From NCBI GenBank assembly GCA_002494215.1, contig DLBF01000096.1, forward strand, positions 1 to 11,811: a stretch of 11,811 bases of DNA, read 5' to 3'. Numbering within the stretch: position 1 is the first letter of the stretch; every line of letters begins with the position of its first letter. Positions 466 through 11,811 of the stretch are shown piece by piece. The position numbers were made by a program, and so were the translations under genes. The stretch is from Prevotellaceae bacterium UBA7028. Its GTDB lineage: Bacteria > Bacteroidota > Bacteroidia > Bacteroidales > Bacteroidaceae. The notes under the pieces were generated by a model, which was not told the DNA's origin, did not search any database, and saw only the letters and a program-made list of their open reading frames with translations.

Positions 466-3400
466 ATGAAAATTTATCTTTCCACATTACTTTTCCTTAT
501 AGCCGGTTTCCTGCAGGCTGATGAGCTTAGTGTTCTTACAGCGCCCCAGGATGATTGCTTTACCATTTGCAGCTCCGTAAGCGCGGACAAGTGCGTAATT
601 GTCAGCGATGCCAATGATGCCGAAGTAGTCTCCACTGTTGTGGCATGCCTGAAGTCGGACCTTAAGGCAGTGACCCGTAAGACCTTTTCCAGTTATAATG
701 CCGTTCCCGAAGGAAAGAACCCCATCTTGGTGGGTACCATAGGGAAGAGCTCTTTTATCGACCAGCTTATAGCCGACGGAAAGATTGACGTCAGCGATGT
801 TCAGGGAAAATGGGAGGCCTTTGGAATCCAGGTGGTGGATAATCCCATGGATGGTGTCTCTAAGGCACTGGTTATCTTTGGTTCACAGCCTCGTGCTACT
901 GCTTACGGTATGTTCGAGCTGAGTCGCATGATAGGTGTCTCCCCTTGGATTTGGTGGGCGGATGTAGCTCCTGCCATCAAGTCTCAGCTCTATGTCACCC
1001 AGGGTAGGAAAGTGTGTGGTTCACCCTCGGTGAAGTTCCGTGGTATCTTCCTGAACGACGAGGACTACGGTCTGCGTCCCTGGGCAGCCAAGAATATGGA
1101 TAAGAACCTGAATAACTTTGGTCCCAATACCTATGGTGCCATCATGGAGTTGCTGCTTCGTTTACGTGCCAATACGCTATGGCCTGCCATGCATGCGGGT
1201 AGCCGTGCTTTTTGGTACGAGAAGACCAACATCCCCCTTATCATGAAGTATGACATCTATATGGGCTCCAGCCACTGCGAGCAGATGTTGCGTGACAATG
1301 AGTACGAATGGGGCAGGAACGGTGACAAGTTTGGTGGTCATTATAATGACGACTGGGTATGGCATTCCAATAAGGAGATGATTAAACGTTACTGGGCTAT
1401 TCGGGTAGGGGAGAGCAGGGGTAAGAATGCCATCTATACCCTTGGTATGCGAGGCGTACACGATACTGGTATCAACGGCTACAATAGTACAGCCGAGCGT
1501 GTAGCTGCCCTGACCGAGATTATCGCTTATCAACGTCAGCTGTTGGCCGACAGTATTGGCGACCCCACCAAAATTCCCCAGATATTCATCCCTTATAAGG
1601 AGGTGCTCGACTGCTACAATGCCGGTCTGAAGGTTCCCGAGGATGTTACCCTGATGTGGGTGGATGACAATCATGGCTATATCCGCCAGATGCCTACGCT
1701 GGCCGAGCAGGCACGATCCGGTGGCAATGCCATCTACTACCACGTATCTTATTGGGGCTCACCCGATTCCTATCTGTGGCTTAGCACCATATCTCCCAGT
1801 CTTTGCTGCTACGAGTTGAGCAAGGCCTATGACCAGGGCGTGCGCGACCAGTGGATTATCAATGTAGGCGATATCAAGCCTGCCGAGGAGGAACTGGAGT
1901 TCTGTATGGATTTGGCTTGGGATATCAATAGCTGGACACCGGAGACGGCCTATCTGTACTCACGCGACTGGGCTGCCCGTACCTTTGGCGAGGATTATGC
2001 CGATGCCATCCAGGAGATCAAAATGGAGTACTACCGTCTGGGTATTGCTTCTAAGCCCGAACATGTGCATCTCTGCCACTTCGATTTCTCTAACGAGCAG
2101 ATCGAGGAGCGTATCGGGCAGTACAAGGAGTTGGTCGAAAAGATGCAGACACTCAAGAGGCGTATTCCTACTACGCTCAAGGATGCCTTTTATCAGTTGA
2201 TAGAATATCCTGTTATTGGTTGTTATGATATGAACGTCAAGCACTTGCGAGCCCGCCAGAGCTTCCTGTATGCTCGTGCCGGACAAGGTGATTTGGCACT
2301 CTCTTACTCCAGGCAGGCACAGACAGCCTTCAACGAGATTGTTTCTTCTACCACCAAGTATAATACGGGTATTTCTTCCGGCAAATGGAATGGTATGATG
2401 GACTACAAACCTAACAACTGGAGCTACCATCTGATGCCTGCTGTGGCTTCGTCCTCTGATGTAGGTCAGATAGAGAGCTCTATTCTGCAGCCTCGAATTA
2501 CCTTTGTGGCTGGTGGCGACTACAATGCATCCTCTGGTACTGTTAAGGCTATTCAGGGATTAGGTATTCGTGGCACCAGTGCCACCGTATGGCCTTTGGA
2601 TATGACGGCTTACAGCAATGCCGCCCAGGCTCCTTATGCCGAATATACCCTGCCTGTGCAGAAGGGTCTGAATCTCATTCAGGTTCGATGCCTGCCCACG
2701 TTCCCCATCAATACGTCTTACGACCTTCGTGCGGGCATCTCCGTTGATGGTGCTACGCCATCCATCATTTCCATTAAGACAACGGCCATGAGTGCTACAT
2801 GGGACGAGACCGTTGCCCAAGGCTACTTCCCCGCAGCTGTTCATTATACCAGCGACGAGGACAAGACCGTTACCGTCAAGGTATCCTTCATGGATCCCGG
2901 CCTTACCGTCAGTGCCGTGGCAAGCATTCCTTTCAGCGCTGGTATGGAGGACCTGACTAACGTGCTGCTCACCAATGCCGATATGGAGTACACCTTTGCT
3001 AATGACCTTAACAAGCAGGGTGTTACCTCGCGTGGATATCCGCGTGGTTGGCGTAATACGGGAAAATTGAGCGGTAATTCATGGGGTGTCAACAGCGATG
3101 CCAAGCACATCTATGGTACCAGTTGCTTCTGGGCTTCTGCCAGTCCGATGCCCAACACCTTCGAGCTCTATCAGACCATCCCTGCCAGCAAGATCGAGCC
3201 TGGAACCTATCTGGTAACATGTAACCTGGGTGTTTTCAAGGAGAAACTGGCTACCTGCCGTCTCTTTGCCAATAAGAACGTGCAGTATTATGGTGCCGAG
3301 GGTGATTATCTGACGTCTATGCTCACATCTGGCGAGAACAACACCTTTGCCGGTTATGGTGGTAGCGGTTCGGGTAAGATGACGCTGAACCCCATGCAGG

Positions 3401-3711
3401 TGATTGTCACGGTCAAGGAGGGCGAGAGCTTGAAACTTGGTATCCGCACCAGCAACTATATGCCTGACGGAACCCGCTCTACCAACGATAACCATGGTTG
3501 GTTCAAGGTCGATCACTTCCGCATCCAGAAGGTGAATGCCGTGGATGATGAGACAAAGATTTCTGAAATTCAAAATTCAAAATTCAAATTTCAAAAGGAG
3601 GGAGCTGTTTACGACCTTGCAGGACGTAAACTTAATTCAAATTTCAAAATTCAAATTTCAAAATTGCCGAAAGGAATTTATCTTATTAATGGACGCAAGG
3701 TGGCGTTATAA
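466..3711 (+). CDS. Secreted GH115 xylan alpha-1,2-glucuronidase with CBM-like and C-terminal sorting modules
   Basis: GH115 enzymes remove (4-O-methyl)glucuronic acid from glucuronoxylan. The 1081-residue protein starts with a signal peptide (cleavage probably after LQA, residue 18). It then has an N-terminal alpha-glucuronidase-like domain (about 30-180), a catalytic barrel opened by FRGIFLNDEDYGLRPWA (191-207), a helical region (about 500-650) and a GH115 C-terminal beta domain (about 675-825). E379 (IPYKEV), N402 (DDNHG) and H426 (YYHVSYWG) fall where, from memory, residues needed for activity lie in Bacteroides ovatus BoAgu115A. Residues about 833-1022 look like an extra jelly-roll carbohydrate-binding module (NADMEY, GWRNTG, LYQTIP, GTYLVT, KVDHFRI). 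The tail VYDLAGRKL...LPKGIYLINGRKV resembles a Por/T9SS sorting signal. Codons around this tail are made of 7-bp repeats. The ATG at 466 gives a clean signal peptide and a predicted promoter lies just upstream. The family is clear; the exact substrate is inferred. Confidence 0.93.
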   Translation: MKIYLSTLLFLIAGFLQADELSVLTAPQDDCFTICSSVSADKCVIVSDANDAEVVSTVVACLKSDLKAVTRKTFSSYNAVPEGKNPILVGTIGKSSFIDQLIADGKIDVSDVQGKWEAFGIQVVDNPMDGVSKALVIFGSQPRATAYGMFELSRMIGVSPWIWWADVAPAIKSQLYVTQGRKVCGSPSVKFRGIFLNDEDYGLRPWAAKNMDKNLNNFGPNTYGAIMELLLRLRANTLWPAMHAGSRAFWYEKTNIPLIMKYDIYMGSSHCEQMLRDNEYEWGRNGDKFGGHYNDDWVWHSNKEMIKRYWAIRVGESRGKNAIYTLGMRGVHDTGINGYNSTAERVAALTEIIAYQRQLLADSIGDPTKIPQIFIPYKEVLDCYNAGLKVPEDVTLMWVDDNHGYIRQMPTLAEQARSGGNAIYYHVSYWGSPDSYLWLSTISPSLCCYELSKAYDQGVRDQWIINVGDIKPAEEELEFCMDLAWDINSWTPETAYLYSRDWAARTFGEDYADAIQEIKMEYYRLGIASKPEHVHLCHFDFSNEQIEERIGQYKELVEKMQTLKRRIPTTLKDAFYQLIEYPVIGCYDMNVKHLRARQSFLYARAGQGDLALSYSRQAQTAFNEIVSSTTKYNTGISSGKWNGMMDYKPNNWSYHLMPAVASSSDVGQIESSILQPRITFVAGGDYNASSGTVKAIQGLGIRGTSATVWPLDMTAYSNAAQAPYAEYTLPVQKGLNLIQVRCLPTFPINTSYDLRAGISVDGATPSIISIKTTAMSATWDETVAQGYFPAAVHYTSDEDKTVTVKVSFMDPGLTVSAVASIPFSAGMEDLTNVLLTNADMEYTFANDLNKQGVTSRGYPRGWRNTGKLSGNSWGVNSDAKHIYGTSCFWASASPMPNTFELYQTIPASKIEPGTYLVTCNLGVFKEKLATCRLFANKNVQYYGAEGDYLTSMLTSGENNTFAGYGGSGSGKMTLNPMQVIVTVKEGESLKLGIRTSNYMPDGTRSTNDNHGWFKVDHFRIQKVNAVDDETKISEIQNSKFKFQKEGAVYDLAGRKLNSNFKIQISKLPKGIYLINGRKVAL
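3567..3594 (+). repeat. 7-bp repeat array inside the GH115 reading frame (first)
   Basis: Four units in register: AATTCAA three times, then ATTTCAA. They encode the residues IQNSKFKFQ just before the VYDLAGRKL motif. The same unit family fills intergenic DNA nearby, so this looks like intergenic repeat captured by the gene. Confidence 0.85.
3634..3661 (+). repeat. 7-bp repeat array inside the GH115 reading frame (second)
   Basis: Four units in register (AATTCAA, ATTTCAA, AATTCAA, ATTTCAA) followed by a decayed AATTG. They encode NSNFKIQISK between the YDLAGRKL and PKGIYLINGRKV halves of the sorting tail, so the repeat sits inside the tail rather than beside it. Confidence 0.85.
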
Positions 3712-3721
3712 AAGACCCTCT

Positions 3722-3751
3722 CCCCGCTCCCCCAAAGGGGCGGGTTTTTTT
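3722..3751 (+). terminator. Terminator after GH115, formed by a GC-rich repeat hairpin
   Basis: CCCC (3729-3732) pairs with GGGG (3737-3740) around a CAAA loop. The stem continues as CCCG (3723-3726) with CGGG (3741-3744) across a two-base bulge, and seven T residues follow at 3745-3751. It starts 10 bases after the GH115 stop and is well placed to end that transcript. It is also a member of the GC-rich hairpin repeat family seen five more times in this window. Confidence 0.75.
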
Positions 3752-3821
3752 GTTGAAAATTGAAAGTTGAGAATTGAAAATTAATCCTTCTCTCTTAATT
3801 CCTAATTATGAATTGTGGATT
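3752..3821. repeat. 7-bp repeats and shared blocks between convergent genes
   Basis: Two runs of 7-bp units flank a shared block. Units GAAAATT, GAAAGTT, GAGAATT and GAAAATT occupy 3755-3782; CTTAATT, CCTAATT, ATGAATT and GTGGATT occupy 3794-3821. The reverse complement of 3784-3801 is GAATTAAGAGAGAAGGAT, identical to 7073-7090. The reverse complement of 3752-3768 is AACTTTCAATTTTCAAC, 16 of 17 identical to 7099-7115. Together with the hairpin at 3722-3751 this makes one copy of a composite element. Confidence 0.8.
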
Positions 3822-3823
3822 AA

Positions 3824-4651
3824 TCAGAAAGCTACTTTACGTCCTTCTTTAATGTAAATACTTTTTGAGGATTTTGAATTAAGTCTACGACCACTCATGT
3901 CATAAACCTCTCCCTCCCATTTGGGGGAGGGGTGGGGAGAGGGGCGACTAATGGCGGTTTCATTCTCCGTTACCTCTATTTGGCAAGCTAAGTTGGTGGC
4001 CTTGTTCTCAATATACGAGTTGTTGACCGTTCCCACGTGGAAGAGTCGGGAGCTCTTGGCATCCGTGTAGCTGCTATATTTGTCTATGCCGGCATCATCC
4101 TCTTCGTCGCCCCCAATGAAGTCGATGGTATATTTGCCAGGCTTGGCATCCTCGGGGATAGTAACCAGGAAGGTTATCTTGATGGAGTCGCATCCGTTGC
4201 GCCAGCAGGCAGAGATATTCTTGGGCACCTTTTTCTGACTTTGGAACCCGTGCCAGGTATAGCCACTCTTCTTGCAGGCAGCATTGTAGAACTCCGTCAG
4301 TTTGTCGCAGGCAATCATGTTATGCTGGCTGTTCACCTTGCTGCCATCGCTGTAATATACCCAATCCTCCGCAAATTGTTGGTGTGCACCCTGGGGTACC
4401 GTCACTTCCCATCCGCTGGGTACACGTATGCCGGCATACGACCAGTCAGTGACAAAGTTCTGCGTGTCCGAACCATCGTCTACCACGGTAAAGCTCACCT
4501 CGATGGTAGAGCCAGCCTCTGCCGTCTTAGGTGCCACCGTCCTGATAATCTTATAACATGAGGTCAGTAGGAATAAAACAAATAATAAAGCACACAAGCC
4601 TCCCCCGGCCCCTCTCAGGGAGGGGAGAATTGATTGATAATTATTTTTCAT
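3824..4651 (-). CDS. Lipoprotein of unknown function with a T9SS-like C-terminal tail
   Basis: This 275-residue protein begins with a hydrophobic segment ending in the lipobox LLTSC (Cys31), so signal peptidase II processing is predicted. The mature part opens with an Ig-like strand pattern (PKTAEAGSTIEVSFTVVDDG). It continues with a Trp- and Cys-containing region (SGWEVTVPQG, GYTWHGFQ, CWRNGCDSIKITFLVTIPED) and a final beta segment (KPGKYTIDFIGG), suggesting an all-beta envelope protein. I do not recognise a named family with confidence. The last 30 residues (VYDMSGRRLN...SKSIYIKEGRKVAF) match the tail type seen in GH115 and the hydrolase of this window. Residues 9-18 (LPSLRGAGGG) and 234-242 (RPSPHPSPK) are translations of the GC-rich hairpin repeat. 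The ATG at 4651 is chosen because no later in-frame ATG precedes the hydrophobic segment. It lies 75 bases after the upstream gene on the same strand and is probably cotranscribed. Confidence 0.75.
   Translation of the reverse strand: MKNNYQSILPSLRGAGGGLCALLFVLFLLTSCYKIIRTVAPKTAEAGSTIEVSFTVVDDGSDTQNFVTDWSYAGIRVPSGWEVTVPQGAHQQFAEDWVYYSDGSKVNSQHNMIACDKLTEFYNAACKKSGYTWHGFQSQKKVPKNISACWRNGCDSIKITFLVTIPEDAKPGKYTIDFIGGDEEDDAGIDKYSSYTDAKSSRLFHVGTVNNSYIENKATNLACQIEVTENETAISRPSPHPSPKWEGEVYDMSGRRLNSKSSKSIYIKEGRKVAF
3907..3944. repeat. GC-rich hairpin repeat inside the lipoprotein gene (C-terminal linker)
   Basis: CCTCCC (3913-3918) can pair with GGGAGG (3925-3930), flanked by CCTCTCCC and GGGGAGAGGGG-like sequence. 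Read on the minus strand it encodes RPSPHPSPKWEGE, the linker just before the VYDMSGRRLN tail. It belongs to the same family as the intergenic hairpins at 3722, 4692 and 6077. Confidence 0.75.
4598..4627. repeat. GC-rich hairpin repeat inside the lipoprotein gene (signal-peptide region)
   Basis: CCCCTC (4609-4614) pairs with GAGGGG (4620-4625) around TCAGG. On the minus strand it encodes LPSLRGAGGG, the segment between the start codon and the hydrophobic core of the signal peptide. Confidence 0.7.
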
Positions 4652-4682
4652 TTTCTATATATCATTTTTTTCTTTTCACTCT

Positions 4683-4722
4683 TCCCTTTCTCCCTCTCCT
4701 TTGGGAGAGGGTTGGGGTGAGG
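4683..4722. repeat. GC-rich hairpin repeat between lipoprotein and propeller genes
   Basis: CCCTCTCC (4692-4699) pairs perfectly with GGAGAGGG (4704-4711) around a TTTG loop, followed by TTGGGGTGAGG. There is no T tract on either strand beyond it, so it is unlikely to be a classical terminator. It may act as an RNA processing or stability hairpin between two minus-strand genes, which is inference. Confidence 0.8.
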
Positions 4723-4726
4723 CTTC

Positions 4727-6052
4727 TTATTCTTCAAACACTGCTTTCCAGTTATACACCCTGAAGAAGAAGGGACGGTAGAAGTCGGCAGAGCCCGTAG
4801 CATTGAAGTTATCGTTGAAATCCTTGCAGTCCGTATTGGTCGAGAATACCAGTTCCCCTTCGCGCGAGAGCGTCTGGTGCAGATGAGGCATATAGAAGTT
4901 CTGGTACGTGCGTGTACCTTTCTTATCCAATACCCAAGGCATTGTCCACAACTGGTGACATTCCTCGAAGGGGCCCCATGGGTTCTTGCTGCGCATGATG
5001 TACAGCTGTTTGCCGAATACATAGCCCTGAGCTGTCATGTAGTAATAGTCGCCGTCCTTGAAGACCCATGCCGTCGAAACGGAGCGGCTCGAGATAGCCG
5101 AGCGGTTCACTTCGGTTGCTGTGGGATAGGTCTTTTGCCAACTGAAATTCCCCTTTTCATCGGCGATATAGTATTCCCATTCCGAACGTAGATCATGTGT
5201 AGTGCTGCGAGCTACAACAGGAGATGAGGTATTCATAACATCGCTTTCATTTTTCTTGTACTGGTTGCAAGAATACAGATAGGTGTGCCCGTCCTCATCC
5301 TCCCAGAGTGTCTGTCCGTAGCCTATGGGATCTTTCTCGAAGAAGTTATGGTCAACGCTCAGTAGCTTCAGGTATGTGTCATCGCCAGGCTTCCCCTCAA
5401 GCGAATAGATAGCCAGAGCGCGGTTGTCGCTCTGCATCAGGTTTTCCGTTCCGTTATAGACGCCAGCCCAAAGCATCTGCAGCTGTCCGTCAACTACCGT
5501 AGCATCGCCTGCCCAGTAAAGCCACTGCTGGTCAATCTCGCCCGCCTTTATTTGTGCCTCCGTCTTCTCCCCCTTGGGGTGGCGCAGGTGCGTGCGGCAG
5601 GTTCCTTGTGCTTTGCTTATCCAGTCGGCCAGCCATACCAGGTTGCTGCTCTTGGTGCCAGGCAGTCCGTCCTCGCCTGGTGTCTGAACCATAATACTGT
5701 TACGTGGGAAGGTACAGTTGCCTCGGGCACGGGTAGTACCGTTGACAATGCCATAGAAGCTGTCGTTGAACGACCAGAACACGTTGCCGTCAGGCAGCAT
5801 GGTTGTCTCTACGCCATCGCCGCCGTTCCAGCCGCGTGTACGGGTGAACAGAGCGTCGTAGAGTTTATCCTTATAGACATATACATTGTGATTAGCATTG
5901 TTGTGGGGCATATACTCCAGTTTCCATTCCTCTTTTACCGATGGAACGGGCCATTTCAATGTGTCTGCCTCAACTTCGTGTGTAAGGTCTTGTGCCGAAC
6001 AGGTTAGTGTCAGCCATAGGGCTGTAAGCAATAGATGTGGACTCGGTTTCAT
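4727..6052 (-). CDS. Secreted DUF5005-like protein, probable beta-propeller
   Basis: The 441-residue protein has a signal peptide (MKPSPHLLLTALWLTLTCSA, cleavage probably before QDL). Its recurring motifs are those of a beta-propeller: VYVYKDKLYDALFTRTRGW (57-75), GNVFWSFNDSFYGIV (89-103), YWAGDATVVDGQLQMLWAGV (179-198), DGHTYLYSC (254-262), FKDGDYYYMTAQG (331-343) and SREGELVFSTNTD (396-408). Sequence style and length resemble DUF5005 proteins of Bacteroidota; the name is from memory. An acidic/aromatic pocket and the location next to GH115 make a carbohydrate-active or glycan-binding role plausible, but no catalytic set can be assigned. The start at 6052 is preferred over an in-frame ATG at 6076. 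The upstream ATG lies inside a GC-rich repeat and would add MGRGFNFN before the signal peptide. The gene follows the nitroreductase fusion on the same strand after 67 bases and has no recognisable promoter of its own. Confidence 0.8.
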   Translation of the reverse strand: MKPSPHLLLTALWLTLTCSAQDLTHEVEADTLKWPVPSVKEEWKLEYMPHNNANHNVYVYKDKLYDALFTRTRGWNGGDGVETTMLPDGNVFWSFNDSFYGIVNGTTRARGNCTFPRNSIMVQTPGEDGLPGTKSSNLVWLADWISKAQGTCRTHLRHPKGEKTEAQIKAGEIDQQWLYWAGDATVVDGQLQMLWAGVYNGTENLMQSDNRALAIYSLEGKPGDDTYLKLLSVDHNFFEKDPIGYGQTLWEDEDGHTYLYSCNQYKKNESDVMNTSSPVVARSTTHDLRSEWEYYIADEKGNFSWQKTYPTATEVNRSAISSRSVSTAWVFKDGDYYYMTAQGYVFGKQLYIMRSKNPWGPFEECHQLWTMPWVLDKKGTRTYQNFYMPHLHQTLSREGELVFSTNTDCKDFNDNFNATGSADFYRPFFFRVYNWKAVFEE

Positions 6053-6076
6053 ATTAAAATTAAAGCCTCTCCCCAT

Positions 6077-6110
6077 CCCTCTCCTAAAGGAAAGGGTGAA
6101 GTTTTTTTTT
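6077..6110 (+). repeat. GC-rich hairpin repeat with T tract, antisense to the local genes
   Basis: CCCTCTCC (6077-6084) pairs with GGAAAGGG (6089-6096) around TAAA with one mismatch, and nine T residues follow at 6102-6110. On the plus strand this has terminator form, but no plus-strand gene ends here and both neighbours run on the minus strand. I therefore list it as a repeat, in the same order (hairpin, T tract, 7-bp units) as at 3722-3782. Confidence 0.75.
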
Positions 6111-6119
6111 GAATTGTTG

Positions 6120-6989
6120 TTAATTTTGAATTTTGAATTTATAAATTTTGATTTTATCAGTATATTTGGGGTAGTTGAATGCGGGCATGCCCAGAGCCAT
6201 TATGGCAAACGGCTTGTGCCCTGGTGGCAGATGCATGAGCTTCTCCGTTCGGCGCTGTCCAATAAACTTAAACGCCATCTGCACCAATCCCATGTAGATT
6301 TGCGAAACGCCGTGAGCTTCTGCCATCAGCGAAGCATTCTGGTATGCCAGGTTGCAGTCCTGCCATCCAAAGTCGTATCCCTTGGGAGTGCTGAATACCA
6401 AAAGTGCCGTTCCGTTGCAGGTGCAGGGACGTTTTCCCGCGCGCCATTTACGTTCGAAGCGGAACAGTTCGGCAGCCTCGTTGTATAAACTGCGCATGAA
6501 CAGCTTGGTCAGTGGTCGTATTGGCTTCGACATTAGCACGTGCGCCAGACTCAGGTAGAACTTCATGGTGGCATCTTCCACCGCTTGAATATCCTCGCCT
6601 TGCAGCAGGGTTACTACCACCTTGCGTGCATTCTCGGCTGTTGGTGCGGTGTAGGCAGCCTCTATGATATCCGACAGCGCCTCAGGGGGGATAGGCTTCT
6701 CTGTGATGGTGCGGTTAGAGCGGCGGCTTTTCATCAGTTCCATCAGCGATTCTGGCGATGGAATCAGTTCTTTCCGTATCTGATGGATATGCTCGGCAGG
6801 GAACGCAGAGTGCTGTATGGCATCCGCCTCGCATACATCCACGCAGTGTCCGCACAGAATGCAGTTCTTCGCCTTCCGCACCGTGGGTACCTCACCCTTC
6901 TCCTGTATATAAACAGCAGAGGGGCAAACCCGTGCGCAGCGTCCGCAACGCTTACACTTATCGGGGGATATTTTTAATTCATAATTCAT
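6120..6989 (-). CDS. Ferredoxin-nitroreductase fusion (2x[4Fe-4S] plus FMN nitroreductase domain)
   Basis: The 289-residue protein has two complete [4Fe-4S] motifs, C12-x2-C15-x2-C18-x3-CP and C43-x2-C46-x2-C49-x3-C53. A nitroreductase domain begins at MELMKSRRSNRTITEKPIPP (83-102), where the Arg/Ser cluster is the usual FMN phosphate contact, and runs to about residue 278. This architecture is common in anaerobes; electrons from reduced ferredoxin probably reach FMN, but the substrate is unknown. It is cytosolic, with no signal peptide or membrane segment. Both ends are made of 7-bp repeats. The start codon is the second AATTCAT unit on the opposite strand (MNYEL), and the last residues YKFKIQN plus the stop lie in the array at 6122-6142. 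Family members usually begin close to the first Cys motif, so little is lost at the N-terminus. The C-terminus may have been replaced. It is likely the first gene of a three-gene minus-strand run. Confidence 0.88.
   Translation of the reverse strand: MNYELKISPDKCKRCGRCARVCPSAVYIQEKGEVPTVRKAKNCILCGHCVDVCEADAIQHSAFPAEHIHQIRKELIPSPESLMELMKSRRSNRTITEKPIPPEALSDIIEAAYTAPTAENARKVVVTLLQGEDIQAVEDATMKFYLSLAHVLMSKPIRPLTKLFMRSLYNEAAELFRFERKWRAGKRPCTCNGTALLVFSTPKGYDFGWQDCNLAYQNASLMAEAHGVSQIYMGLVQMAFKFIGQRRTEKLMHLPPGHKPFAIMALGMPAFNYPKYTDKIKIYKFKIQN
6122..6142. repeat. 7-bp repeat array at the nitroreductase 3' end
   Basis: Units AATTTTG, AATTTTG and AATTTAT lie in register and are followed by a related AAATTTTG. 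On the minus strand they encode the last residues and stop of the ferredoxin-nitroreductase. Confidence 0.75.
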
Positions 6990-7080
6990 AATTCACAATT
7001 CACAATTCATAATTCATAATTCACAATTCACAATTCACAATTCATAATTCATAATTCATAATTCATAATTAAGAATTAAG
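6976..7080. repeat. Long 7-bp tandem repeat array (15 units)
   Basis: Fifteen uninterrupted 7-bp units: AATTCAT twice, AATTCAC twice, AATTCAT twice, AATTCAC three times, AATTCAT four times, AATTAAG twice. Only T/C variation at position 7 distinguishes the first thirteen. The first two units overlap the start of the ferredoxin-nitroreductase, and the second supplies its ATG. The rest forms the gap to the CPBP gene. No promoter motif is visible on the minus strand in this gap. Confidence 0.95.
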
Positions 7081-7154
7081 AGAGAAGGATGAAGAATTAA
7101 CTTTCATTTTTCAACTAAATCCCTCTTCCCCGTCGGGGAAAGATAGAGGGATTT
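7073..7154. repeat. Composite element: shared 18-mer, 17-mer and palindrome
   Basis: GAATTAAGAGAGAAGGAT (7073-7090) has an exact inverted copy at 3784-3801 and a 14-base partial copy at 11529-11542. AACTTTCATTTTTCAAC (7099-7115) matches the inverted 3752-3768 at 16 of 17 bases. A perfect 10-bp inverted repeat follows (AAATCCCTCT at 7117-7126 with AGAGGGATTT at 7145-7154), with an inner TCCCC/GGGGA stem. Block order is the same as in the 3722-3821 copy. The palindrome lies within the 3' end of the CPBP gene and has no T tract on either side. Confidence 0.8.
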
Positions 7155-7901
7155 TAACAGATACCCACACAGGGCTAATCCTACTACGATGCAGATGATG
7201 GCGATGGTGTTGCCGCCTACCCATTCCACCATGCTAAAGTCCTTGGCCTTTTCGCCCATCACATTCATCTGGATGAGGGCAATCGAGTTGTTCAGAATGT
7301 GTATGATGCTGGTCAGCACGACGTTGCCTGTCTTAATGTATATCACGCCCAGGATGATGCCTATTATCATGGCAACGACCACCTGAGCGGGGTTCATGTG
7401 TATGATTCCGAACAGGACGGCCGAAACCCAGATGGCTTTCCAGGGCTTGGCGCCGTTACGTGCCAGGTATCCGCAGACACCCTCGCGGAACACCAGTTCC
7501 TCGGCTATCGGACCCACGATGGCTACGGTGAGTATGCCCCAGAAGCTGTAGGACAGTTGTTCCATCATCGTATCCTCGATAAAGTTGGGCATGTTGGTTA
7601 TCTCTACCAACAGGTCACCGGCGAAAGCACCCGAGAAGGCAGCCACGAGGGCCATCAGCACCCAACCCACGCTCATTTTGGAAGCCTTGAATGTGGCGGG
7701 TATCTCCATCACCTTCAGCGCCTTCCAGCAAACGAGCACACCTGTTATCATAAAATATATGTACGCGATGGTCATTACCGTTATGATGGGGCAATCAGCG
7801 CCGGCTAATTTGCATAACACTGCTACTACGCCTATTACAATGGCTGTCAATATCTGCGAAATCAAGAAGTACGTCAGTACAGACAATAATGCTCTTTTCA
7901 T
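7104..7901 (-). CDS. CPBP family intramembrane metalloprotease (CAAX protease-like)
   Basis: The 265-residue protein has multiple hydrophobic spans (about 6-30, 38-60, 78-98, 120-133, 156-168, 174-190, 195-212, 230-250). It carries the CPBP/Abi motifs: EE134-135 with R139 (AEELVFREG), FGIIH168 and H201-x3-N205 (HILNN). These residues form the active site of this membrane protease family, whose bacterial substrates are mostly unknown. The start at 7901 is preferred over an upstream in-frame ATG at 7949, because a perfect -7 promoter element lies between them and the shorter form begins at MKRALLSV. The final ten residues (PTGKRDLVEK) and the TGA come from the composite repeat element, so the native end of the family probably lies just before. 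The gene is divergent from the hydrolase gene, with 147 bases between the start codons. Confidence 0.88.
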   Translation of the reverse strand: MKRALLSVLTYFLISQILTAIVIGVVAVLCKLAGADCPIITVMTIAYIYFMITGVLVCWKALKVMEIPATFKASKMSVGWVLMALVAAFSGAFAGDLLVEITNMPNFIEDTMMEQLSYSFWGILTVAIVGPIAEELVFREGVCGYLARNGAKPWKAIWVSAVLFGIIHMNPAQVVVAMIIGIILGVIYIKTGNVVLTSIIHILNNSIALIQMNVMGEKAKDFSMVEWVGGNTIAIICIVVGLALCGYLLKSLYLSPTGKRDLVEK

Positions 7902-7927
7902 ATTCTTCTTCTTTGTTATTATTGCTG

Positions 7928-7935
7928 CAAAGTTA
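7928..7935 (-). promoter_or_regulatory. Predicted -7 promoter element for the CPBP protease
   Basis: On the minus strand this reads TAACTTTG, an exact TAnnTTTG match, 26 bases before the chosen ATG at 7901. Transcription would start near 7921, excluding the upstream ATG at 7949. No clear -33 box was found. Confidence 0.6.
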
Positions 7936-8002
7936 GCAATAAATTCCATATTCGAGCATTGTTTTGTGTATTTCTGTTATTTATGGTGATGGTATCTATG
8001 AT

Positions 8003-8048: not shown

Positions 8049-9593
8049 ATGAGACGATTTCTACTTTCTACTGTCGTTTTTCCTCTCTTTGCCTTTGTGC
8101 TGAAGGCTCAGACAGCCGAGGTGTCGGAAAGCCTGACACAGGTGTATAGTTCCACTTGGTCGCGTTTCTATTCATACAACTATCCGTCCAAGAATGCTGC
8201 GGGCGAGGACGTTGTTCTCTCTTCTATGCTCATAGCATGGAGCCCGTTGTTTCCCTCCGCTACAGACAGCATCGAGTCCCTGCATATCTATAGCCACTAT
8301 ACGATAACTGCCAACAAGCAGTCTCCTACCTCCAGCGATAATACGCAGGACAAGTTACTGTTCGGTATGCTCGTAAAGAACTCCTATGATACCAGCCATA
8401 CCTGCGACTACGTTTCCCGTTGTGTGGTTATTGCACCTGATTATCAGGGTTATGGCGTAACGCGAGACCAGAGCCATCCCTATCTGGCGCAGGCATTGAC
8501 GGCCCAGCAGGTGATGGATGGTGTAAGGTATGGCATGGAGTTGTACCAAAAGCTTGTTGCCGACAAACAGGCACTACCCATTAAGAGTGACTGGCGCACG
8601 TTTGCCTATGGCTATTCTCAGGGAGGAGCTGTGACGCTGGCGGTGCAGCGATACATAGAGCAGAACAATCTCTCGGACGAGCTTCATTTCCGTGGAAGCA
8701 TCTGCGCTGACGGGCCTTACGACCTTTTGGCTACCTTGCGATATTATCTGGATGATAATGGCGACAGCTATGGTGTCTCTACGGCTCATCTTAAGGGGCT
8801 GAGCACCATGCCTATGGTCATTCCTATGATTATTAAGGGAATGTTGGATTCCCATCCCGACATGAAGGACCATTCCATCGCGGACTATCTTTCCCAGCAG
8901 TTCCTCGATACGGGTATTATGGATTGGCTCTCGAGCAAGGATCTCTCTACCAACGATATCTCCGAAAGGTGGTATAGCCAGGTGCAGGAAGGCCTGGAGG
9001 CCAACGGACATTGTTATTCCCCAGAGCAGATGGCGGAGCTTTTCCTGGCTAAAGGGAAGAGTCAGGTTTGGGCCCGACTGGAGAAAGTCTTTACCCCGGG
9101 TCTTTATGAATACCTGACGAATCCTGAGAATTTTGATAATGTTCCCACAGAAAAAGGCGATGCATGCCAGGATTTGCATCGCGCTTTGGCCGATAACAGC
9201 GTTGTGACGGGCTGGGAGCCGCAGCATCGCATACAGTTTATCCATTCCAAGGGAGATATGGTTGTTCCCTATGCCAACTACCTTTCTTTCCTTGATGCTC
9301 ATTCCGCTGCCAACGAGACGCTTTTCCGTGTCGATGACAGTTCAACGTCAGACCATACGGCGGTTGGCACCTCCTTTTTCTTAAGTCTCACAGCCATGTC
9401 CGGATTTGGTGATTATTTCCGCTGGCTTGACGAACCGCTGGATGCGACGGGAATAATAAGTCATCAGTTCGGGGATGGCGATCATGGTGCTTCTGGTGAG
9501 TGGTATAGCATAGACGGACGCCGTCTGAGCGGTCATCCTGCCCAGAGGGGAGTCTATATCCGCAACGGCAAGAAAATGTTATTCAATAAATAA
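8049..9593 (+). CDS. Secreted alpha/beta hydrolase (secretory-lipase-like esterase) with C-terminal sorting tail
   Basis: The 514-residue protein starts with signal peptide MRRFLLSTVVFPLFAFVLKA, cleaved before QTAEV. The fold shows VVIAPDYQGYGVTRDQSHPY (126-145) and the nucleophile elbow GYSQGG with Ser190. It also shows the acid strand FIHSKGDMVVPYANY with Asp403 and the His motif SDHTAVG with His436, so a complete Ser-Asp-His triad is visible. The GYSQGG elbow and long cap insertion (about 225-345) resemble secretory lipases and related esterases; the ester substrate is not evident. The end, WYSIDGRRLSGHPAQRGVYIRNGKKM (485-510), is a Por/T9SS-like tail, so export across the outer membrane is inferred. 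Unlike GH115, this tail carries no repeat insertion. An upstream in-frame ATG at 7959 is rejected because it would run through the promoter and spoil the signal peptide. Only ten bases separate it from the next gene. Confidence 0.88.
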   Translation: MRRFLLSTVVFPLFAFVLKAQTAEVSESLTQVYSSTWSRFYSYNYPSKNAAGEDVVLSSMLIAWSPLFPSATDSIESLHIYSHYTITANKQSPTSSDNTQDKLLFGMLVKNSYDTSHTCDYVSRCVVIAPDYQGYGVTRDQSHPYLAQALTAQQVMDGVRYGMELYQKLVADKQALPIKSDWRTFAYGYSQGGAVTLAVQRYIEQNNLSDELHFRGSICADGPYDLLATLRYYLDDNGDSYGVSTAHLKGLSTMPMVIPMIIKGMLDSHPDMKDHSIADYLSQQFLDTGIMDWLSSKDLSTNDISERWYSQVQEGLEANGHCYSPEQMAELFLAKGKSQVWARLEKVFTPGLYEYLTNPENFDNVPTEKGDACQDLHRALADNSVVTGWEPQHRIQFIHSKGDMVVPYANYLSFLDAHSAANETLFRVDDSSTSDHTAVGTSFFLSLTAMSGFGDYFRWLDEPLDATGIISHQFGDGDHGASGEWYSIDGRRLSGHPAQRGVYIRNGKKMLFNK

Positions 9594-9603
9594 TATAATT
9601 GGT

Positions 9604-11463
9604 ATGAAAAACAACGTTGGAATCAGGGTTTCTTCCTTTGTTGCCCTGATGGTGAGTATGGCCTTATCGGCCTTCGCCCAGAACCAGCCGGGTAAGCCTT
9701 GGCAGGTAAATGTGATGAGTTATAATGTACAGCATTGTGCTGGTGTCGAGATGGACATCAACTACGATCGAACGGCGGATATCATCTGGCGGCAGCAGCC
9801 CGATGTGGTAGCCCTGCAGGAGTTGGACAGCGTTACCACCCGCAGCGAGGGACTTAACCAGATCGAGGAACTGGCACGTCGTACCCTCTACTATCCCGTC
9901 TATGCCAGTGCCATCGACTACAAGGGTGGCAAGTATGGCGTCGGCATCCTCACACGCGAGCGTCCCCTAAGTGTTACCCGCACCCCTTTGCCTGGCAAGG
10001 AGCCCCGTGTGCTCTTGGTGGTAGAGCTGGAGAACTATGTGATGGCATGTGCGCATCTCGACCTCATGGAGGAGAACCGTTTGGCATCCATTCCCATCCT
10101 TGTCCGCGAGGCAAAGAAGTGGCAGAAGCCCTTCCTTATAGCAGGCGACTGGAACGATACACCAGACTCTAAGACGATGAAGGAGATAGGTAAGTTCTTT
10201 ACGGTGAATTCGGGTAAAAAGCCTACTTTCCCTGCTCAGGAACCCAAGGATTGTATAGACTATATCGCTTCCTTCAATGCCTATCCTGCCGTAGGCTTGA
10301 AGAGCTGGGTGCTGGACGAGCCTACTGCCTCAGACCATCGTCCCCTTATGACCACCCTGCGTTTGCCCATCAAGGCCGACAAGCTGATGCCCCTCAAGCC
10401 TTATCTGCAGGACCCACACCCTACGCAGATGACCGTGATGTTCCAGACAACGGCTCCTGCCCATTGCTGGGTGGAGTACGGAACAGACCCTAACAACCTG
10501 CAGCAGAAGCATGCCCTGTTGGACGGACAGGAAATATGCTTCGATATCGAGAACCGCATCACCCTCGACAACCTGCAGCCCGGACAGAAGTACTACTACC
10601 GCGTCTGTGTGGTGGATCTGATGATGAAGCATGCCTATGAGTTCCATACGGGTGATACCTTGCGTACCCAGTTCTATCAGTTCACTACGCCACAGGTGAA
10701 TAGCACCGACTTCACCTGCGTTATTTTCAACGACCTGCACGACCGTCAGAGTACCTATAAGATGCTGCGTGATACCTTGCGTGTGGAAGGTATTTCTCCC
10801 GATTTCATCGTATTTAATGGTGACTGCCTGCCCGAACCTTACGACCGCGAGCACGCCATCCGTATGATTCACAGTCTGGCAGACCCCATTGGTGGTGCTG
10901 AGACGCCCATCTTCTTCATCCGAGGCAATCACGAGATTCGTAACTTCTACTCGGCTGGCATGCACAGCCTGATAGGTTATCCTGGCGATAAGACTTACGG
11001 CGGTATCAGTTGGGGCGATACCCGTTTCATGGTACTGGATTGTGGCGAGGATAAGCCCGATGACGATCGCGAATATGCCGGTTTCAACGACTTTACTCAG
11101 CTTCGTGCCGAGGAGACCGACTTCATCAAGCAGGAACTCAAGAGCCCTGCTTTCAAGAAGGCCAAGCGTCGCATCCTGCTCAGCCACATCCCCGTCTTCG
11201 GTAACGACGATAAGTACCAGCCCTGCCGTGATGCCTGGGCTCCTCTCCTTCAGTCACAGCCCTTTGATGTAGCCATCTTTGCTCATACGCACAGGTTCAA
11301 CTATGCTCCTCAGGGCTTGGGCGGTGCCACCTATCCCGTAGTGAACGGTGCAGGTCCTAACATTCAGCGTGCCTCTGTCATCATCCTGCAGAAGCGTGGC
11401 AAGTCCCTGCACCTTCGAACCCTGAGCCGTAAGTCCGAAAACTGCATTGATGTAGAGCTTTAA
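9604..11463 (+). CDS. Secreted two-domain phosphoesterase: EEP domain, FN3-like linker, calcineurin-like domain
   Basis: The 619-residue protein has a signal peptide (cleavage about AFA-QN, residue 26). Residues about 34-255 form an endonuclease/exonuclease/phosphatase domain with N41 (SYNVQH), E73 (LQELD), H151 (CAHLD), D182 and N184 (GDWND), and D244-H245 (SDH). Residues about 270-362 resemble the fibronectin-like domain before purple acid phosphatase domains (HCWVEYGTD, LDNLQPGQKYYYRV). Residues about 370-600 form a calcineurin-type metallophosphatase with D377 and H379 (NDLHD), D407 (NGDC), N442-H443 (GNHE), H528 (LSHIP), and H561 and H563 (AHTH). Both metal centres look complete, so this may hydrolyse two successive phosphoester bonds, for example a diester and the resulting monoester. 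That is inference. It lacks the sorting tail of its neighbour and follows it by ten bases, so the two are probably one operon. Confidence 0.9.
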   Translation: MKNNVGIRVSSFVALMVSMALSAFAQNQPGKPWQVNVMSYNVQHCAGVEMDINYDRTADIIWRQQPDVVALQELDSVTTRSEGLNQIEELARRTLYYPVYASAIDYKGGKYGVGILTRERPLSVTRTPLPGKEPRVLLVVELENYVMACAHLDLMEENRLASIPILVREAKKWQKPFLIAGDWNDTPDSKTMKEIGKFFTVNSGKKPTFPAQEPKDCIDYIASFNAYPAVGLKSWVLDEPTASDHRPLMTTLRLPIKADKLMPLKPYLQDPHPTQMTVMFQTTAPAHCWVEYGTDPNNLQQKHALLDGQEICFDIENRITLDNLQPGQKYYYRVCVVDLMMKHAYEFHTGDTLRTQFYQFTTPQVNSTDFTCVIFNDLHDRQSTYKMLRDTLRVEGISPDFIVFNGDCLPEPYDREHAIRMIHSLADPIGGAETPIFFIRGNHEIRNFYSAGMHSLIGYPGDKTYGGISWGDTRFMVLDCGEDKPDDDREYAGFNDFTQLRAEETDFIKQELKSPAFKKAKRRILLSHIPVFGNDDKYQPCRDAWAPLLQSQPFDVAIFAHTHRFNYAPQGLGGATYPVVNGAGPNIQRASVIILQKRGKSLHLRTLSRKSENCIDVEL

Positions 11464-11592
11464 TGGTATCTCTATATTCCTCTCCTAAAAGTGATGAGTA
11501 CGAATAACTGCTTGCAAACTTAAATATAGAATTAAGAGAGAAAAAAAGAAGTGGAATCTTCATCTATCATCGCTTACGGTTTGGCGAATAAG

Positions 11593-11629
11593 AAAAAGGA
11601 GTTGCGCGATCGCGTAACTCCTTTTTTTT
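11593..11629. terminator. Strong, near-symmetric rho-independent terminator
   Basis: AAAAAGGAGTT (11593-11603) pairs with AACTCCTTTTT (11616-11626). The stem continues through a G-T pair and CGCG/CGCG to a very small loop, and eight T residues run 11622-11629. The A run at the other foot makes it usable on both strands. It would end the hydrolase-phosphoesterase transcript 130 bases after the stop, and also a tRNA transcript coming from the right. Confidence 0.9.
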
Positions 11630-11634
11630 CAACG

Positions 11635-11676
11635 TGGACCAGCTTGGGCTTGAACCAAGGACCTCCAGATTATGAG
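11635..11676 (-). pseudogene. 3' half of a tRNA-Met(CAT) gene, probable integration-site scar
   Basis: Read on the minus strand it has anticodon loop CTCATAA (11676-11670, anticodon CAT), 3' anticodon-stem strand TCTGG and variable loop AGGTC. A perfect T arm follows (CTTGG, TTCAAGC, CCAAG), then acceptor strand CTGGTCC and discriminator A at 11635. CCA is not encoded. The 5' anticodon-stem strand should be CCAGA, but the sequence is TTGGT, and no D arm or 5' acceptor strand (GGACCAG) follows. Homology therefore stops exactly at the anticodon loop. This is the expected scar when an integrase uses the 3' half of a tRNA as its attachment core. Confidence 0.75.
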
Positions 11677-11739
11677 ACCAATTTAGTGATATTCTGCGAT
11701 AGTCTATGATTTGTAACTATACTGATGGTCAATAAGTTA

Positions 11740-11747
11740 TATCTTTG
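11740..11747 (+). promoter_or_regulatory. Possible -7 promoter element pointing off the right edge
   Basis: TATCTTTG matches TAnnTTTG exactly, with a TTTG at 11710-11713 that is somewhat too far upstream for a normal -33 box. It would drive a plus-strand gene beginning beyond the window, possibly the integrase of the element; that gene is not visible. Confidence 0.35.
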
Positions 11748-11790
11748 CGATTTTCACTGAAACTCACAAAATACCCCTAACTGAAATAGT

Positions 11791-11811
11791 TTGTTTACGC
11801 ATTGTTTACGC
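11791..11811 (+). repeat. Direct repeat TTGTTTACGC at the window edge
   Basis: TTGTTTACGC occurs at 11791-11800 and again at 11802-11811, one base apart, giving an 11-base period (about one helical turn). Such paired sites beside an attachment core can be arm-type recombinase or regulator binding sites. More copies may lie beyond the edge. Confidence 0.6.

Follow-up and report, generated by a model that had tools for sequence, protein, structure and literature searches.

We analyzed an 11,811-nucleotide stretch of DNA from Prevotellaceae bacterium UBA7028 (contig DLBF01000096.1; below, the window), in which an initial annotation had recognized, between positions 3716 and 7154, a composite repeat element made of 7-bp units, an 18-mer, a 17-mer, and a GC-rich hairpin in fixed order. 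This apparent element probably represents two largely independent families of dispersed repeats that pile up at the same permissive places. The first would consist of degenerate heptanucleotide arrays whose units are mostly of the T[GC]AANNN type and which expanded within a single clade of the Bacteroidaceae, and the second of GC hairpins with a pyrimidine-rich left arm (CCTCYCC...GGRGAGG). The arrays would grow and shrink in 7-nt steps by slippage, and their words would be copied between loci of one genome, a pattern seen in the sequences for which ectopic gene conversion or template switching could be the route. Both families would be gained at operon junctions, gene 3' ends, and protein linkers, mostly as neutral insertions filtered by selection, with a few copies put to use, the one at 3723-3751 as an apparent terminator and some array units as a start codon and terminal codons.

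Repeat blocks in the window

The sequences described in the initial annotation turned out to be real and correctly placed: the 18-mer GAATTAAGAGAGAAGGAT at 7073-7090 (plus strand) and 3784-3801 (minus strand), the 17-mer pair with its 16/17 match (AACTTTCATTTTTCAAC at 7099-7115, plus strand, and AACTTTCAATTTTCAAC at 3752-3768, minus strand), the hairpins, and a partial third copy. The three copies are referred to as A, B, and C.

6976-7066, plus strand: copy A, clean part; 13 units of AATTCAT or AATTCAC (TGAATTA or TGAATTG on the opposite strand)
7067-7115, plus strand: copy A, degenerate continuation; AATTAAG AATTAAG AGAGAAG GATGAAG AATTAAC TTTCATT TTTCAAC, including the 18-mer and the 17-mer
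7117-7154, strand not assigned: copy A, hairpin; within the 3' end of the CAAX protease gene, where it encodes ...SLYLSPTGKRDLVEK
3723-3751, plus strand: copy B, hairpin with a T7 tract after it; resembles a terminator and lies where GH115 and gene 3824-4651 converge
3752-3821, minus strand: copy B, degenerate array; AATCCAC AATTCAT AATTAGG AATTAAG AGAGAAG GATTAAT TTTCAAT TCTCAAC TTTCAAT TTTCAAC, as read on the minus strand
6066-6155, plus strand: copy C; GC stretch at 6066-6100, T9 at 6102-6110, and degenerate TTTTGAA units at 6111-6155

Outside the clean AATTCAT array, the identity at lag 7 was 0.63 in copy A (7060-7117) and 0.61 in copy B (p < 0.001, 2000 mononucleotide shuffles each), compared with 0.25 in a gene used as control. 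The 18-mer and the 17-mer, which had been parsed as distinct blocks, belong as ordinary members to a single degenerate heptamer array and share the 7-bp register of their AATTCAT neighbors; each copy is therefore a degenerate heptamer array plus a GC hairpin. Copies A and B agree at 32 of 35 positions across five successive units, which implies either derivation of one from the other or a shared source; the inverted pair 3760-3822/7052-7114 (63 nt) is 81% complementary. The longest exact repeat in the window, 18 nt, exceeds the 12 to 16 nt found in 60 first-order Markov sequences of the same length. A third, partial 18-mer (GAATTAAGAGAGAAAAAA) lies 3' of the last gene, at 11529-11546, with no array of this kind alongside.

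The hairpin of copy A folds at -20.4 kcal/mol (z -4.07 vs shuffles) and that of copy B (3723-3744) at -15.9 kcal/mol (z -1.89). As to the partial copy, annotated at 6077-6142, its GC stretch, T9, and 7-bp units do stand in the order claimed, but folding of the GC stretch does not surpass that of shuffles (z 0.09), and the 7-bp periodicity is weak (p 0.048 at lag 7 and 0.029 at lag 8). Copy C includes the last codons of the nitroreductase gene, and units of the copy A array spell the ATG of that gene (6987-6989, minus strand) together with its codons for MNYELK. A relative's protein 83% identical to the nitroreductase (P0002) has an N terminus identical to MNYELK, so its gene, too, may start inside such an array.

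Further units and hairpins had been reported at 3567, 3634, 3907, 4598, and 4692, and all are present; the one at 4598, as a hairpin, is no better than shuffles.

3566-3596, plus strand: heptamer array of TTCAAAA units, in frame in the GH115 linker before the C-terminal VYDLAGRK module
3634-3665, plus strand: second heptamer array, in frame in GH115 between VYDLAGRKL and LPKGIYL
3907-3942, strand not assigned: pyrimidine-left GC hairpin, in frame in a linker of gene 3824-4651 (minus strand); z -1.51
4598-4627, strand not assigned: GC hairpin-like stretch, in frame near the N terminus of gene 3824-4651, encoding SILPSLRGAGGGL, signal-peptide-like by eye; z -0.36
4692-4711, strand not assigned: GC hairpin CCCTCTCCTTTGGGAGAGGG of the pyrimidine-left type, where the DUF5005 gene meets gene 3824-4651; z -1.71

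The reading frames of the three genes with hairpins or arrays in frame (GH115, 3824-4651, and CAAX) stay open, and the orthologue of gene 3824-4651 at locus L006 of a relative lacks the stretch at 4598-4627, reading MKKKLYILVMLCLLTSC instead.

The two families in related genomes

Relatives were represented by 35 loci (L numbers) from genome contigs, mostly of draft metagenome-assembled genomes (MAGs) of Bacteroidaceae/Prevotellaceae, many of them from ruminant guts by their titles; G001 to G009 are the genomes of nine near relatives. In 2.1 Mb of four relatives, period 7 was the commonest among the arrays reported by Tandem Repeats Finder (TRF), with 330 of 996, while periods 6, 8, 9, 12, and 14 accounted for 30, 48, 94, 89, and 109, respectively. 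Period-7 arrays numbered 23 in the 150 kb of loci L001-L008 and 6 in the 76 kb from the G009 lineage; the more distant loci L009-L027 and L029-L034 (442 kb) had none. The word AATTCATAATTCATAATTCA (at most one mismatch, overlapping hits counted) was found in all nine near relatives, with 5 to 67 hits each and none for the reversed control, and in 33 of 198 Bacteroidia genomes, G008 included, the reversed control being non-zero in 6 of the 198 (1 to 6 hits). Low-complexity sequence and draft metagenomic data could raise the suspicion of an assembly artefact or plain low-complexity noise; with the same words in nine of nine separately assembled relatives and an exact repeat longer than the Markov expectation, this explanation is hardly credible.

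The 18-mer belongs to a family with 42 hits (at most two mismatches) in eight of the nine relatives, against 2 for the reversed control; among the 30 hits whose loci were read, some (e.g., L041, L043, L046, and L048) lie within coding sequence and look like chance. It takes species-specific forms, such as GAATTAAGAGAGAAGAAT in G008 and GAATTAAGAGTGAAGAAT in G004. Degenerate 7-periodic 24-mers constitute 6 to 27% of dispersed exact repeats, compared with about 1% of all 24-mers (204 of the 2085 24-mers present at two or more places in G001, 81/843 in G003, 142/2220 in G004, and 128/469 in G008). Slippage gives perfect local arrays, and dispersed identical degenerate words therefore need copying; by their sequences, array words seem to have been copied between unlinked loci, beyond slippage. 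Together with the match between copies A and B and with the empty orthologous sites described below, the dispersal of the 18-mer family bears out the earlier view that the blocks are not local low-complexity drift.

The units share a grammar. Among 329 period-7 units, which fall into 78 distinct classes, 163 fit AANNNT[GC] in any rotation and on either strand (T[GC]AANNN when read circularly), compared with 58.8 after letter shuffling (z 14.7); non-nested alternative grammars gave z values of 0.7 to 3.6. On the minus strand of the window, copy A has 13 occurrences of T[GC]AA spaced by 7 nt, and copy B has 3. Runs of four T[GC]AA with this spacing were counted 107 to 474 times in the whole genomes G001-G009, and the reversed pattern 20 to 140 times, with no excess in G001 (142 vs 140); in the G009 lineage, one of six TRF units fits (1.3 expected). 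G217, the genome of the distant locus L019, has 98 hits to the pattern elsewhere, despite the lack of period-7 arrays in the distant loci.

Hairpins with a stem of at least 7 bp in four relatives had a pyrimidine 5' arm in 102 cases and a purine one in a single case, and this bias makes them a family rather than random palindromes. The pattern CCTCYCC(2-7)GGRGAGG occurs in 111 of 198 Bacteroidia genomes, at up to 164 places per genome (at most 3 for the reversed control). A fixed composite unit, as first proposed, is not supported by these genomes, hairpins and arrays being largely decoupled across them: the AATTCAT array is absent from 28 of the 39 genomes with 10 or more hairpins, 22 of the 33 genomes with AATTCAT arrays have fewer than 10 hairpins, and the association is weak (odds ratio 2.4, p 0.052). 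Of the 26 distinct 18-mer places in the fetched loci (30 in all), only one had a hairpin, defined by an exact 6-bp pyrimidine-left stem, within 120 nt.

Filled and empty sites and their placement

Filled and empty sites were compared by eye in the syntenic loci L001-L008, in which the neighbors of the nitroreductase gene are kept in order and the sites are therefore comparable. The junction of the CAAX protease and nitroreductase genes (J1) carries in the window the hairpin, the degenerate units, and the 13 heptamers. Hairpin and AATTCAT array are both missing from six of the eight loci (L001, L002, L003, L005, L006, and L008), where the genes abut or overlap. These empty sites are not bare, with two TTGA-type units in L005, a short 7-periodic coding tract in L006, and a coding tract of 9-nt period in L001, L003, and L008 (the tracts by eye). 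L004 has a different hairpin, an A-rich AAAAGAGA stretch, and AAGCTACT 8-mers, and L007 has two other hairpins. When J1 was compared for target-site duplications, it proved to be rewritten on both sides, with no definable insertion ends. At the nitroreductase/DUF5005 junction (J2), all parts are confined to the window, the seven relatives that have J2 all lacking them. A third junction (J3), where the DUF5005 gene adjoins gene 3824-4651, is empty in L006, where stop and start codons overlap, and carries hairpins, some of them downstream of the start codon, in the six other relatives that have it. The GH115 linker holds TTCAAAA arrays in the window and L004 and an 18-mer variant in L006. (GH115 itself is represented in L004-L007 by two neighboring paralogues, one of which the window has.) The same sites have thus been filled repeatedly, with different blocks of the same kinds. 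The empty orthologous sites by which insertion was to be recognized thus exist at both J1 and J2.

Between G001 and G003, which are about 95% identical, 10 of the 17 indels of at least 12 nt in a 127-kb alignment were, by eye, 7- or 8-mer units, pieces of GC hairpins, or two structured elements (two of the ten being pieces of one poorly aligned block). Unit number varies, with whole-unit indels of 21 and 42 nt. A 205-nt insertion in G001 that is not in G003 (L092:16151) comprises inverted TAACTTC units and GC palindromes besides five GAAGTTAAAAGG-type units. GC hairpins at L089:663 and L136 (G001 vs G003) and near the DUF5005 junction of L001/L003 contain, as nested palindromes, a 71-nt palindromic element (core CCACTGAATGTGGC); at one site, G003 has it and G001 does not.

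Several observations weigh against the reading preferred here. The copying route itself was not observed, slippage alone leaves the shared unit grammar unexplained, and the dispersed-word signal consists partly of GC-hairpin words and, in G008, also of a longer duplicated stretch (L044/L055). Hairpins and arrays are neighbors about twice as often as expected: 23 of 211 hairpins (stem of at least 6 bp) lay within 30 nt of an array of period 7, 14, or 21, compared with 11.25 expected (0 of 500 permutations), an excess carried mainly by G001 (11 vs 3.5; 5 vs 3.0 and 6 vs 3.1 in two others, and 1 vs 1.6 in G008). Open reading frames (ORFs) for this count and for the gap placement below were called by a crude caller of at least 120 aa. 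Hairpin and array are both present at J1 and J2 of the window, where most relatives have neither, and L003 and L001 differ at one junction by a block of hairpin, T tract, and array-like sequence, in a poor alignment.

The shared junctions, the neighbor excess, and the like order of parts in copies A and B would also suit a single composite non-autonomous mobile element of hairpin, T tract, and array, resembling a miniature inverted-repeat transposable element (MITE) or a repetitive extragenic palindromic (REP) sequence and moved by a host transposase or a REP-associated tyrosine transposase (RAYT). We consider this unlikely. Besides the near absence of hairpins from the 18-mer places and the weak association across the Bacteroidia, it is opposed by the lack of any inverted repeat joining the two ends of copy A. 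The direct-repeat signal at the flanks of GC hairpins (z 3.3 adjacent to the stem, 2.1 at a greater distance) is little above that of random sites (1.9). Matches to the Y1 transposase (Y1_Tnp) were found in five of the nine relatives and not in G003, G004, G005, and G008, which include the two richest in AATTCAT arrays, an absence that is soft in draft MAGs. The flanks of three RAYT-like loci (L183, L184, and L185), inspected by eye, had a ACAGGTACC-type palindrome and no CCTCYCC hairpin; the former is plausibly the cognate REP of these RAYT-like genes. On these draft genomes and three loci, mobilization by RAYT was rejected. The REP- and MITE-type assignments of the initial annotation are not sustained, and of the co-occurrence of blocks in relatives, the twofold neighbor excess stands while the 18-mer places almost all lack a hairpin.

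Two largely independent families remain the preferred reading, with which the placement of the blocks can be compared. Per kilobase, arrays number 1.75 in same-strand gaps, 1.52 in convergent ones, and 0.68 in divergent ones (287 of 481 arrays lying in gaps of up to 1.5 kb), and hairpins 0.36, 0.74, and 0.10, respectively. Scarcity in divergent gaps fits insertions tolerated where promoters are spared. Among copies A to C, the sole hairpin listed as terminator-like is that at 3723-3751, a GC stem followed by a T tract, which looks like the terminator of GH115 and is predicted as such.

Bacteroidetes generally lack Shine-Dalgarno signals. Unstructured 5' untranslated regions are favored in them, according to the excerpts of PMC3155529 consulted, a paper that also provides expression tools for the rumen bacterium P. 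bryantii TC1-1. Along with the terminator-like hairpin and the nitroreductase ATG formed by an array unit, the preference for unstructured regions could speak for selected regulatory cassettes, in which the hairpin would act as a terminator or mRNA stabilizer and the AT-rich array would give the next start codon an unstructured leader. We find such cassettes doubtful: presence of the blocks is not conserved among relatives, terminator-like hits in 3500-7300 are at the shuffle level (5 vs a mean of 4.0), and the array is capable of folding on its own (-10.7 kcal/mol, z -1.25). From stop to start, arrays are spread evenly over the quarters of same-strand gaps (63/49/54/43) with no concentration at start codons, and the array as a translation leader was not favored on this account.

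The genes of the window are as follows.

Window start region: end of a partial first gene, which we take from its sequence to be PNPase-like (no Pfam match)
466-3711, plus strand: GH115
3824-4651, minus strand: small lipoprotein-like gene (label by eye)
About 4727-6052, minus strand: DUF5005 protein gene
6120-6989, minus strand: ferredoxin-nitroreductase gene
7104-7949, minus strand: CAAX protease gene
About 8049-9593, plus strand: gene with no Pfam match
9604-11463, plus strand: endonuclease/phosphatase-type gene

A tandem repeat with a 27-bp unit at 158-231 encodes the Arg/Pro-rich tail (RRPRPERGE) of the PNPase-like gene. The stretch 11590-11811, which includes a palindrome resembling a terminator, what looks by eye like the remnant of a tRNA, and, at its extreme end, an 11-bp direct repeat (TTGTTTACGCA), is possibly the edge of an integrated element; ARAGORN found no tRNA in the window. 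Rfam gave no match in the window at the gathering threshold, and a plasmid search with 6900-7200 gave weak matches alone (14 records, best E 0.3).

A 74-nt element, known repeats, and the 7-bp period

A 74-nt structured element (AGGCTGCGATTRAGYGAGAG...GAGCAGGCTCGACCGNAGGTC) came to light through indels between G001 and G003; it has 154 pattern hits in eight of the nine relatives and 0 in the control. Loci were fetched for 30 of the hits, and the 37 copies considered below are those matching the seed-and-end pattern in the fetched loci. Of its 18 predicted pairs, 13 show changes on both sides (36 sequences). A model of the element matched in 18 of 26 further genomes; its counts per genome are lower bounds, 150 candidates having been scored in each. 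Examples are L085:4070-4143, L095:16563-16636, L136:2774-2844, and L156:9255-9328, and G217 has at least 104 matches. At the gathering score, Rfam gave no match to the element in six loci, which yielded solely a cobalamin riboswitch, and when one element cluster was searched permissively, all matches stayed well short of the gathering scores. At L111:1320-1734, five adjacent AT-rich copies (about 83-nt spacing) stand alongside a TATCAAT-type heptamer array, with the end of an rplQ-like gene on one side and an operon of Wza/Wzc type on the other (both named by eye).

The flanks of this element resemble the arrays. The 8-mers flanking the 37 copies match each other at a mean of 5.73 of 8 positions, compared with 4.49 when permuted (0 of 5000), and the local match is high (z 9.8 vs 1.9 at random sites). 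Direct repeats of 7 nt (at least 6/7, 1-nt offset allowed) occur at 19 copies, with the consensus AANNNTG, which is the grammar shared by about half of the arrays, and one 80-nt G003/G001 indel consists of the element plus a copy of the flanking array unit AATTGTG. The arrays might on these grounds be landing sites of the element at T[GC]AANNNT[GC]AA, or multiplied leftovers of its 7-bp target duplication, an explanation to which we give a small chance, a little above that of the composite element or the cassettes. Slightly less likely is the explicit version in which the mobile 74-nt element made the arrays, its integration recognizing a pair of T[GC]AA half-sites spaced by 7 bp and duplicating the intervening 7 bp; successive insertions, losses, and slippage would then leave (T[GC]AANNN)n arrays such as those at 3752-3821 and 6976-7115. 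Against both, no clear direct repeats are seen at the remaining 18 copies, some of the direct repeats fall within arrays, which makes the grammar test partly circular, and the grammar is not enriched in G001 or the G009 lineage. Element clusters are no nearer to TRF arrays than random intergenic places are (9 of 43 within 30 nt vs 7.8), and the window has no copy (best E 0.66). A causal link from element to arrays is possible but made less likely by genomes that have only one of the two: in G009, which has arrays, the pattern finds no element, and G219, G222, and G223 have 51 to 83 element matches and 4 to 5 array hits each. If the link were true, the dominant 7-bp period of these genomes would have a mechanistic cause besides polymerase slippage.

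The arrays belong to a known kind, the heptanucleotide repeats. Heptanucleotide long simple sequence repeats (LSSRs) were described by Mrazek et al. (2007), as reported in the excerpts of PMC4679880 and PMC4692102 consulted. According to these, TAACTGA repeats occur in Beggiatoaceae, Cyanobacteria, and five Bacteroidetes, sometimes in ORFs, some close relatives having shorter, repeat-free intergenic regions, and GGGNATC repeats occur in Xanthomonas and Nostoc. Like the LSSRs so described, the present arrays have a 7-bp unit, lie mostly in intergenic regions and at gene ends, are patchy by taxon and missing in some close relatives, and sometimes enter ORFs. The tandem 7-nt unit exceeds chance clearly in copies A and B and weakly in copy C, and its number varies between G001 and G003. 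Unlike LSSRs built on one word, they use many unit words, about half with the shared T[GC]AANNN grammar; their degenerate words are dispersed in species-specific forms, and GC hairpins share their junctions. They are not filed as REP because the hairpin was missing from the RAYT flanks and RAYT presence is inconsistent, nor as MITE because no terminal inverted repeat was found.

BrickBuilt of Porphyromonas gingivalis, a minisatellite inside a MITE, is likewise a dispersed tandem-repeat element of the Bacteroidales and is thought to be mobile; as far as the excerpt of PMC4596501 goes, it has a 23-nt unit and a leader and tail with terminal inverted repeats, whereas the units here are of 7 nt and no such repeats were found. 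DRT10 telomerase-like reverse transcriptases make tandem-repeat DNA of constant short period, each system using a single templated motif (of 9 nt in Eco3DRT10), according to the part of PMC12632851 consulted. Templated synthesis of this kind was rejected for the arrays, since a single template would not give 78 unit classes among 329 arrays (reverse transcriptase genes were not searched for). The hairpins have relatives of their own in kind. REP sequences and bacterial interspersed mosaic elements, served by RAYT transposases, are short GC-rich palindromes found in many intergenic copies, as the hairpins are; the difference lies in the four of nine relatives with no Y1 match and in the other palindrome beside RAYT-like genes. 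Rickettsia palindromic elements are inserted in frame within protein-coding genes, and the in-frame insertions seen here similarly leave the protein otherwise intact; the taxon is unrelated, the likeness is one of placement, and here heptamer arrays fill the same kinds of site.

No paper on such heptanucleotide repeats in Prevotella was among those listed by the one open-access library searched. The case shows how an apparent composite mobile element can resolve into separate repeat families at shared permissive sites. With its filled and empty sites, its unit grammar, and a candidate 7-bp-duplicating element, the clade is suited to testing why bacterial tandem repeats favor 7 bp.

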